Both the position numbers and the translations under genes were made by a program. A stretch of 64,000 nt of DNA, taken from the NCBI GenBank assembly GCA_016124585.1, contig WGNL01000004.1:1-64000 (forward strand). The letters run 5' to 3'. How positions within the stretch are numbered: position 1 is the first letter of the stretch; the number at the start of each line of letters is the position of its first letter. Origin of the DNA: Bacteroidota bacterium (GTDB lineage: Bacteria > Bacteroidota > Bacteroidia > Chitinophagales > Saprospiraceae). Of the stretch, positions 9,159 to 12,056 are shown one piece after another. A model generated the notes under the pieces. That model was not told the DNA's origin. It made no database searches and saw nothing but the letters and a program-made list of their open reading frames with translations.

Positions 9159-10025
9159 CTATCTTTCAAATATTTCCTTCAAATTTCCCCTGATATTATT
9201 GCTGATTCGGTTCAGTGGCAAATCATTGGCATCCTGCCCGAATGGGTCTTCTATTTCCTCCGCAATGATTTCAATGCCTGCAAATGTATAGAATACCAAT
9301 GGTATGATAACCGTTGACCAATATCCAAATTCAGATACAAAACCAATTGGCATGGTGAATATATAGAGGAATATAACCTTCTTTAAAAATAAGCTATAGG
9401 CATAGGGTATGGGCGTTTTTTGTATGCGCTCACATGCGCCTATATTGTCGGTAAAGGATTGTAGCTCGGCATTTATATAGAGCAGTTGCTCTCCAGTTAT
9501 TTTATTCAAATGGTATAGCTCATTTACTTCTTTGTAAATAGCCTGCATTACGGCATTCGGCAAATGCGCTTTTTTCCGAAACTCGGCAATAGGGTAGCGG
9601 TCAGTGTCCTCAAAGTCATCGGGATTGAAGCCATTGCGGAGATGCCATTTCATTGCCATCACTTGGTTGTTGATCAATGCCTGAAACCGCTGACGGGTGG
9701 CTTCGTCTTCTACCAGATTGCTCAGTTTAAGGGCCAGATTCCGGGAATTATTAACCACGGCGCCCCAAATCTTACGGCCTTCCCACCAACGATCGTAGGC
9801 AGTATTGGTACGGAACACCAAAAGTAATGAAAGCACAAAACCGACCAAGGAATGCACGATGGTGGTATTCTTGAATTGGGCATGAAAAACATCCAGTTCC
9901 AAATAGGCAACCAGCGCTGTATAGGCTGCAACCCCTAGCATTGCTGGAAACAATTGTCGGAAAGTGTCGCTTTTATGGAATACAAAAATGAGCTTCCACC
10001 AGGATTTTGGATTGTAGTCTACCAT
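9159..10025 (-). CDS. Bestrophin-like chloride channel family protein
   Basis: A 288-residue integral membrane protein of the bestrophin/UPF0187 family, whose members form pentameric anion or cation channels. Family marks are the N-terminal KSWWKLIFVFHKSDT, the pore-region helix after it, and FRTNTAYDRWWEGRKIWG around residues 70-87. Four hydrophobic segments are visible (about 24-45, 52-72, 200-222, 225-250). The C-terminal PFGQDANDLPL is also conserved in the family. I chose the ATG at 10025; the open frame reaches 12 codons further without family similarity. It is monocistronic. Confidence 0.87.
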   Translation of the reverse strand: MVDYNPKSWWKLIFVFHKSDTFRQLFPAMLGVAAYTALVAYLELDVFHAQFKNTTIVHSLVGFVLSLLLVFRTNTAYDRWWEGRKIWGAVVNNSRNLALKLSNLVEDEATRQRFQALINNQVMAMKWHLRNGFNPDDFEDTDRYPIAEFRKKAHLPNAVMQAIYKEVNELYHLNKITGEQLLYINAELQSFTDNIGACERIQKTPIPYAYSLFLKKVIFLYIFTMPIGFVSEFGYWSTVIIPLVFYTFAGIEIIAEEIEDPFGQDANDLPLNRISNNIRGNLKEIFER

Positions 10026-10198: not shown

Positions 10199-10490
10199 CG
10201 CATACTAATACTTGCCGCTCCCGAAGCGATACTTTTTGGCTGCGAACCGATACTTTATGTTTGAGAAGACATGTTTTTTTAAAAACATGAAATACTTTTT
10301 GTTTGTTAATTCATCTTCTGCCAATGCGAACGCATGTTTTTTCAAAACTTGCGCATACTTTTTTCATGCGAACTCATGTTTCCCTTATGCGAACGCATCT
10401 TTTTACTATAAGATGAGATACTTCTTGTTTGTTAAGCTATGTTCCGCCGATGCGAACCAATACTTTCTGTTTTTTTTTATTAAAATTTAA
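10199..10490 (+). repeat. Degenerate 21-bp tandem repeat array
   Basis: About thirteen units of exactly 21 bases run from 10199 to about 10471, with a consensus near TGCGAACGCATACTTTTTGTT's first 20 bases. The core TGCGAAC occurs at 10241, 10325, 10367, 10388 and 10451, all separated by multiples of 21 (84, 42, 21, 63). The other units are diverged but keep the following 'ATACTTT' or T-tract. One plus-strand frame is open through the whole array (from an ATG at 10257 to a stop at 10490) and would encode a heptapeptide repeat of the type A-N-x-Y-F-L-F. The T-tracts recur every two helical turns, so the region may be curved. Confidence 0.75.
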
Positions 10491-10818
10491 ACAAAATTGA
10501 GCTCAAAATTTGTATGTTTATAGCAATGACTATACATTTGTCAAATGTTCCAAAAGTGAAGGTGGTAGCTAGTTCAGTTGGATATAGGAACTAATCTTTT
10601 AAGACAGCACATTGGCAAGAAATTAGGGTCTAAGAATCGTCATAAGCTTATGTTCGTATTGCCCTTATATTGCTAGGTCAATGTATTGCACTTAAAAAGA
10701 ACGATTTCAATGTATATAATCAAATATTTTTAACCAAGCCGCTCAATTTATAGCAATATAACCCGTGTAGAACCGAGTTGATGCCCTAAATCAAACGGCT
10801 CCTTAAATCAACACCCAT
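10491..10818. other. AT-rich gap without a recognisable gene
   Basis: Upstream region of the gene at 10819. A short phrase (TTTATAGCAAT) occurs twice, near 10518 and 10748. I see no gene or RNA fold in it. Confidence 0.5.
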
Positions 10819-11742
10819 ATGGATGCATTGACCAATGCCTACATCAAGATGATGACTGATGTAGAAAAACTCTATGATGCCAACCAGGCAATATTGGACA
10901 ACATACCAGCCTTTGCTGCCAAAATGGTTGTTTTCAAAAACCATAATGCCACTATTGGACTGCTATTGCCACTGGCCGAAGAAACCACCAAGCCTACGAC
11001 CAACGAACGGGACTTGATACTGGAGAATATGTGCTTAGCCGCCGAAAAGGTCTGCAAGCCTGTGCAGGCTTATGCTGCCAGTATCAATGACCTTTTGCTG
11101 GAAGGAAGCATGAATTGGACGGCGGATAGCCTTGGTAGGCAGGTGAAGGACGTGGTAGGCCCAACCTGTGTGAGCATCCATACAAAGGCTACCGAAGTAA
11201 AAACCCCTGCTGCCGATTTTGGCTTGAAGCAATCAGACCTTGACGACCTGGATACCAATAACACGGCATGGGCTGCCAAGCAATCGGCCATCCGTGCCAA
11301 ACAAGTGGCCAGCAGCCAAGCCAAGCGGCAAATACTGAAATCGGTGGCTGACAATAAGAACCTGCTCAACCGCATATTGGACCGCATGGTGGCTACTTTG
11401 TCGGATTCGAACCCCACGCTGGTCGGGCTTTGGAACCAGACCCGCCAAGTGATGGACCCCGGTACCACAGTCACTACCCAGCGTTTTAAAGTGGTGCACC
11501 GCTTAGAGGACAGCAATATGGAACCATTGTATCAAGCGACGGTCGTCATGGAAAAACAGGGCGTGCGACTGGAACTAAAGACTAATTCGCTCGGTGAGGT
11601 AGAGTTCAGGCCCATCAAGCAGGGCATTTATCGGGTGACGGTGAGCCTGGCTGGCTATCAGACCGTGACGTTTTTGGAATTCAGGGTGAAACAGGGGAAA
11701 ATCGGTAAGCAAGAGGTGGAGCTGCTACCTAATGAAGCTTAA
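10819..11742 (+). CDS. Unknown helical protein with C-terminal carboxypeptidase-regulatory-like domain
   Basis: A 307-residue protein without signal peptide or membrane segment. Residues 1-215 look all-helical and match nothing I recognise. Residues about 225-305 form a beta-sandwich of the carboxypeptidase-regulatory-like type, with the usual pattern: LKTNSLGEVEF followed by GIYRVTVSLAGYQTVTF. Such domains often carry or present another domain. Base composition is richer in G+C than the flanking repeats. It has its own strong terminator. No function can be assigned. Confidence 0.65.
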   Translation: MDALTNAYIKMMTDVEKLYDANQAILDNIPAFAAKMVVFKNHNATIGLLLPLAEETTKPTTNERDLILENMCLAAEKVCKPVQAYAASINDLLLEGSMNWTADSLGRQVKDVVGPTCVSIHTKATEVKTPAADFGLKQSDLDDLDTNNTAWAAKQSAIRAKQVASSQAKRQILKSVADNKNLLNRILDRMVATLSDSNPTLVGLWNQTRQVMDPGTTVTTQRFKVVHRLEDSNMEPLYQATVVMEKQGVRLELKTNSLGEVEFRPIKQGIYRVTVSLAGYQTVTFLEFRVKQGKIGKQEVELLPNEA

Positions 11743-11776
11743 GAATGTTATTTTGTTTGCAATTATTTTAAGGTGG

Positions 11777-11808
11777 ACGCCTGCCTCCGTGAGGAGGTAG
11801 GCGTTTTT
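11777..11808 (+). terminator. Strong terminator after the gene ending at 11742
   Basis: A 12-bp stem, ACGCCTGCCTCC (11777-11788) with GGAGGTAGGCGT (11793-11804), GTGA loop, one G-U pair, then TTTTT. Confidence 0.85.
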
Positions 11809-11809
11809 A

Positions 11810-11848
11810 GTAACTCGGTCTGCCAGACCGTGCTTCTCGCACTTGTGC
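11810..11848 (+). repeat. REP element, single copy
   Basis: GTAACTCGGTCTGCCAGACC and the following CGTGCTTCTCGCACTT match the REP family found around the RAYT gene at 61 kb. A decayed second arm may follow (CGGACTTCTCCTGTCC near 11858). It directly follows the terminator. Confidence 0.75.
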
Positions 11849-11888
11849 CAAGTCATCGGACTTCTCCTGTCCCATAAAATTTGCTAAC

Positions 11889-12056
11889 TACTGCCCCAGC
11901 GGGGCAAAATATTTGTAGAAATCCTGATTATCCCAGACCTCAGGCTCCAGCGGAGTGAAATCTATAGAGAATGCTTTCATATTGCTCCCCGCTGGGGCTG
12001 GACATAAAGGTTGCCGCCAATTCCTACAAAGATTACGCCCCGCTGGGGCTAAGGTC
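11889..12056. repeat. Second REP-like family, four palindromic copies
   Basis: Four short palindromes: GCCCCAGCGGGGC (11893-11905), GCTCCAGCGGAGT (11944-11956), GCTCCCCGCTGGGGC (11984-11998) and GCCCCGCTGGGGC (12037-12049). The first two are followed, and the last two preceded in reverse, by a related AT-rich tail (AATATTTGTAGAAAT-like). They therefore point inwards as two direct and two inverted units. The family differs from the CGGACT-type REP. Confidence 0.7.

Follow-up and report, generated by a model that had tools for sequence, protein, structure and literature searches.

The window, i.e. the whole stretch of 64,000 nucleotides that was analysed, contains a 21-bp array at positions 10199..10471, which consists of 13 rows in one register with a 63-bp higher order. 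It was delimited by means of Tandem Repeats Finder, lag identity, and a row layout; no strand is assigned to it. The array sits between two divergent genes and lies in their shared upstream region. On the reverse strand, a gene for a bestrophin-type channel (Bestrophin_2; 9159..10025) starts at 10025; on the forward strand follows an ORF at 10819..11742, which we name gene X. A sigma54-like element, TTGGCAAGAAATTAGGG (GG-N10-G), is located at 10612..10628 of the forward strand, 207 bp before the ATG of X.

Gene X encodes a protein of 307 aa with a CarboxypepD_reg domain at its C-terminus and an N-terminal domain for which no Pfam family scored over the cut-off (DUF720, with an E-value of 0.0056, stayed below it). 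Comparisons of the X protein with NCBIfam, PHROGs, and PDB sequences gave nothing convincing. The single-sequence structure prediction was poor (mean pLDDT 47); in this low-confidence model the N-terminal domain is helical. X is a multicopy gene: at an E-value of 1e-8 it was found in 8 of the 14 genomes of the genus and in two further genomes (G092, G181), among the 398 searched genomes of the bacterial family. A looser profile (A1) gave a match in all 14 genus genomes, mostly to the C-terminal domain. The 31 X genes considered below exclude four fragments (G001:C74, G001:C44, G000:C34, G011:C157) and many matches restricted to the C-terminal domain. Inspection by eye of the region 3' of X (11760-12000) revealed GC-rich inverted repeats, a possible terminator, and the pair CAGCGGGGC / CCCCGCTGGGG. 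A Por_Secre_tail domain is encoded next door to the array region, and gene content of this kind suggests that the DNA comes from a member of the Bacteroidota.

Period and register of the array

An earlier note on this DNA had described a diverged array with a strict 21-bp period, and the row layout places the core TGCGAAC at 10241, 10325, 10367, 10388, and 10451, exactly as claimed there. For 10199-10490, the identity at lag 21 is 0.476, whereas dinucleotide-preserving shuffles average 0.282 and never exceed 0.369; as 0 of 2000 shuffles reach 0.476, the excess of 21-base autocorrelation, on which the note had staked its claim, is present. When the 64-kb window was cut into tiles of 292 bases, the ten top-scoring ones all fell on the array (best value 0.498), the best value elsewhere being 0.406. 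The identities at lag 42 (0.496) and lag 63 (0.541) are both above that of lag 21, which indicates the 63-bp higher order. Tandem Repeats Finder, run as the note had proposed, likewise gives a period of 63 for 10270-10457 (score 167); its own alignment of this segment contains 7% indels.

Adjacent rows have about half of their letters in common (approximately 50% divergence), and still the phase is kept in 13 rows. In the ungapped layout, A10, T11, and T14 are unchanged in 13/13 rows; because these three columns are invariant, the register is kept. The statement that about thirteen diverged rows share one phase thus holds, with T at column 14 in every row. The best-scoring block, 10208-10465, comprises about 12 rows. 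The unit contains a near-perfect dyad of 12 bp, ATGCGAACGCAT, at 10324..10335, and a second copy is found at 10387..10398 (both without assigned strand). The shape of such a dyad is typical of dimer sites.

Arrays of the same period with other units

The unit of the window array appears to be private to this locus. Pattern and sequence searches found no second array of it in its own genome. Among the matches listed for the single-unit pattern, exact ones occur only at the window array; if up to 2 mismatches are allowed, the counts (68/51) are close to those of the control (56/43). A two-unit pattern (up to 2 mismatches) has matches in 3 of the 398 genomes of the bacterial family, namely its own and one match each in two others, and in its own genome it hits the window array and one position inside another 21-bp array (C36, family Y). 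The control, i.e. the same pattern read backwards, gave single matches in four genomes. With counts close to the control and few matches, we rejected the idea that the unit is a dispersed or mobile repeat. No plasmid match to the unit was found; one match in a genome collection and two in viral contigs score only locally on the array profile (the best, L064, over two rows). The BLAST matches in relatives look like chance matches of low complexity, as judged from two that were inspected (L029, L055). A locus of the own genome (L022, E-value 8e-5) is without a 21-bp array, and L024 has an unrelated one elsewhere in the locus.

The search of related genomes suggested in the note had a twofold outcome: the unit itself gave few matches, but the 21-bp period recurs with other units in several genomes of the genus. 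A sequence-blind period scan of loci around homologous genes detected intergenic 21-bp arrays with differing units in G000, G005, G006, G007, and G008, often showing a higher order of 42 or 63 bp. The own genome, scanned over 884 kb, has three arrays of period 21 and one of period 44 bp outside ORFs; inside ORFs, periods of 33 bp and further multiples of three prevail. Of the arrays in 569 kb of G008, 4 of 10 outside ORFs and 5 of 7 inside have periods of 21 or 42 bp, the array density being biased here, as the contigs were partly picked for holding X genes. Note that ORFs were called by length alone and that some "genic" arrays lie in ORFs opened by the array; for G008 this holds for several arrays inside ORFs. 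A scan of 200 kb of G007 gave one array each of period 16, 41, and 42 bp, and in 200 kb of G019, which belongs to another genus, arrays of 16 and 26 bp were found (L157, L160, L162, L164), so that the favoured period may be lineage-specific. For 200 kb of G055, from another family of the order, there was no array at that threshold; another scan detected two, with periods of 26 and 59 bp. One array (L143) lies between convergent genes. In the array L147:15606-15941 the units change strand halfway along without loss of the 21-bp register, and two family Y arrays contain units in both orientations. In the literature searched, which was mostly judged from listings, we recognised no account of this class of arrays.

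Arrays and promoter elements upstream of X genes

An X gene was assigned an upstream array if a score over 17 was reached within 650 bp upstream; as controls we used 379 other genes whose upstream gap measures 200 bp or more. By this definition, 13 of 31 X genes but only 10 of 379 controls have a 21-bp array at most 650 bp upstream (Fisher p=1.2e-10 with all ten controls counted, a guide value, since related genes are not independent). All 13 arrays have period 21, none 20, 22, or 24 bp. The ten scoring controls comprise four X arrays seen from the neighbouring gene, three arrays of 14 or 17 bp, and three independent cases. Among genes outside the families X, Y, and Z with a gap of at least 600 bp, 8 of 71 score, six of them through an X array viewed from its neighbour or through a 17-bp array; this is why long gaps alone fail to explain the bias towards X. 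The link to X was first noticed in loci of earlier period scans, and ten further members were examined afterwards. Seven of these have an array (G008:C13, C34, and C39, G000:C43, G012:C275, G001:C56, G092:C100), although the score of G001:C56 is marginal (17.8); the three G181 members have none.

The remaining 18 of the 31 X genes are without an upstream 21-bp array, some of them with a good sigma54-like element (e.g. G008:C47, G005:C593). At G000:C12 and G000:C45 the array lies downstream instead of upstream, and at G007:C3 about 1.2 kb upstream. An X gene of G011 (L106, around 1088) has a 30-bp array in place of a 21-bp one at the same upstream position. In the own genome, strong 21/42-bp arrays follow shortly 3' of two X genes (L112:2271-2501, L113:2612-2863).

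Two more gene families, Y and Z, came to attention through their arrays, which are located upstream of 4 of 5 Y members and 1 of 2 Z members. For Y members found later, the count is 2 of 3, the third being a fragment; the second Z gene has about 180 bp of upstream sequence up to the end of its contig, too little for a verdict. The start of the Y gene at G000:C5 is a guess, as the codon is not ATG. For the bestrophin gene, five orthologues of the genus were compared. A clear upstream array exists in G000 and G005, with different units; in G006 a score of 25.8 is reached over a short 7-bp-like repeat, and the orthologues of G001 and G008 have no upstream array. The G005 array (L069:911-1325, score 117) extends from -590 to -176, its unit is unlike that of the window, and among the ORFs listed beside it there is no obvious X gene. 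Arrays upstream of some bestrophin orthologues suggest that the window array could serve the bestrophin gene too.

Most X genes of the genus have TTGGCAT-N4-TTnG or a close relative before the start codon. The pattern TTGG[CT]A[TC] picks 19 of 27 X genes; in these, column 12 is T in 19/19 and column 14 is G in 17/19, i.e. the G at -12 is frequent although it was not a picking criterion, in genes that are related and thus not independent. The strict form of the element occurs in 13/27 X genes versus 1/379 controls, and a relaxed form, which was tuned on the X set, in 24/27 versus 7/379; on the reverse strand the latter gives 0/27 and 7/379. The classic TGGCA N6 TTGC matches 3/27 X genes and 2/379 controls. 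The window element TTGGCAAGAAATTAGGG ends with GG rather than GC; it is missed by the strict pattern and matched by looser ones. The -24/-12 elements of sigma54 promoters have a GG-N10-GC spacing, and an excerpt of PMC12316311 gives their consensus as TGGCAC N5-7 TTGCT; the picked X elements have GG-N10-G. Since most of them lack the C of the -12 GC, we call the element sigma54-like. With 2 matches found and 2.8 expected, the sigma70-type match at 10692-10720 does not exceed chance.

An excerpt of PMC7057263 places enhancers upstream of the promoter, at a distance of some 100-150 bp. Of 13 cases compared (12 X genes, one Z gene), 10 have an array that reaches into the zone 100-150 bp ahead of the element; the nearest ends are 4-291 bp apart (median 130), and three arrays are farther off. 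The 19 upstream regions used for scoring elements and blocks were chosen mostly for a seen array and hence are no measure of frequency. In the window, the array block lies 147-404 bp before TTGGCAAGAAATTAGGG. The own genome encodes enhancer-binding proteins, with 7 matches to PF00158 (sigma54 activator). These are few for one activator per unit type, which argues against an enhancer, and with only 2-7 matches per genome in 15 genomes, a separate activator for each array is unlikely. Family Y has arrays without a clear sigma54 element, and the three control genes that match the strict or the TT.G pattern all lack an array (few cases).

Interpretation of the array

The preferred reading, to which we assign a probability of roughly 0.4, is that the array regulates in cis from an upstream position and belongs to a class of such arrays in the genus. 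We infer an upstream activating array of helically phased, putative protein sites. Each unit would be occupied by a DNA-binding protein, which might be a nucleoid protein or an activator of the enhancer-binding type. The spacing of 21 bp would align the sites along one face of the helix, such that the proteins could assemble side by side, and the array might then loop to RNA polymerase at the X promoter and possibly act on the divergent bestrophin gene as well. Whole 21-bp units may be gained or lost, which would keep the phase while the sequence drifts. The fixed period of the 13 upstream arrays, their bias towards X genes, and the sigma54-like elements speak for this reading; against it speak the 18 X genes that lack an upstream array, the arrays placed downstream, 1.2 kb away, or replaced by a 30-bp one, the family Y arrays with no clear element, the control genes with an element but no array, and the array between convergent genes. 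The note had left it undecided whether the locus is a bend, a protein-binding array, or a coding repeat. Among these three, a putative binding array fits best, because the period is common to arrays of other sequence, many arrays lie in promoter regions, and the unit contains the 12-bp dyad ATGCGAACGCAT.

Nearly as likely is a neutral intergenic minisatellite, in which a lineage-specific slippage or recombination process favours 21-bp steps and long intergenic regions accumulate arrays devoid of function. It would account for units that differ from locus to locus, for the additional periods of 16, 17, 22, 26, and 30 bp, and for the X tree, on which arrays must have been gained or lost about 7 times (the array label is somewhat clustered on the tree, 18 of 500 shuffles being as low). 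Arrays are also not clearly better kept than their flanks in related pairs, the values being 0.49 versus 0.57 and 0.53; 0.41 versus 0.39 and 0.59; and 0.73 versus 0.57, 0.66, and 0.75. The bias towards positions upstream of X, which goes beyond the effect of long gaps, and the phase kept over 13 rows despite the divergence speak against neutrality. Curved DNA from phased T-tracts, which would act as a bend in the promoter region, is improbable. The AA/TT signal at 10.5 bp is indeed high at the window array (97th percentile of the window and above 1000 of 1000 plain shuffles), and the T of column 14 occurs in all rows; however, 13% of column-permuted copies reach the same signal, as determined by a simple phase sum rather than a full predictor, and AT modulation with a 10.5-bp period shows no clear excess across 27 arrays (z 0.96). 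Predicted curvature may add something at the window array, but it does not appear to be a property of the class.

An element acting at the RNA level, i.e. hairpins of a transcribed array in the X leader, is highly improbable: an inverted repeat is visible by eye near 10268-10288 and some arrays have units in both orientations (L147, Y arrays), but the window array shows no unusual folding (z -1.27, matched by 16 of 200 shuffles), no Rfam family scores above its gathering threshold (two chance-level matches), and a transcript begun at the element at 10612 would exclude the array. We give hardly any credence to a repeat coding for heptapeptides. One frame is open through the array, as had been noted (92 aa, 10212..10490, forward strand), yet this ORF is not supported as a gene: it has no Pfam match, and the suggested test for codon-position bias of substitutions gave p=0.555 here and a combined p of 0.97 over 27 arrays. 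These 27 arrays have 51 open frames compared with 32.9 in column-permuted copies, an excess that we set aside because this null breaks the dinucleotide make-up; moreover, the frames are spread over both strands (27 and 24). The least credible of all readings is an iteron- or centromere-like site of replication or partition. Such sites typically have repeats about two turns long, but there are several arrays per genome with different units, and 0 of 9 ORFs tested around the array match a replication or partition family.

Known systems share single traits with the arrays. Sigma54 upstream activating sequences consist of a few sites of one activator; like the arrays, they lie upstream of a -24/-12-like element with the sites, putative in the arrays, on one helical face, whereas here there are up to about 13 rows, a different unit for each paralogue, and an element that mostly lacks the C at -12. 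In plasmid iterons, direct repeats also are about two turns apart; in contrast to these, the arrays occur at several loci with different units and, at the window array, no replication family was found in the nine ORFs tested. Repeats reportedly occur in the promoter regions of H. pylori sabA and the Mannheimia leukotoxin; the likeness is the location in promoter regions, the difference that the arrays mostly keep a 21-bp period and are free in sequence. The TAACTGA direct repeats of Beggiatoaceae and some Bacteroidetes, as described in excerpts of PMC4679880, form many intergenic arrays, often upstream of genes; they have one fixed 7-bp sequence, whereas here the sequence varies from locus to locus and the period is shared.

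A more specific form of the regulatory reading, which we consider rather unlikely, holds that spacing, not sequence, is the conserved signal. A freely drifting unit, one for each X paralogue and copied in register, would seat a DNA-binding protein that reads the phase (possibly X itself, as a paralogue-specific partner) and would loop to the sigma54-like promoter. Arrays that keep a period while their sequence is free would offer a clean test of whether helical phase alone carries regulatory information; they also provide a handle on the unnamed, repeatedly duplicated X family and on how arrays arise. As for the regulatory reading in general, the dyad symmetry of units counts against it, exceeding chance only weakly (11.04 versus 10.38, with an sd of 1.9 per array). 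Four related pairs of arrays were compared with respect to the gain or loss of whole units. Gaps of this kind are not clear in three of the pairs, and arrays are still recognisable in related pairs; in the fourth, the family Y arrays G000:C36 and G008:C24, each sequence has one gap of 21 columns.
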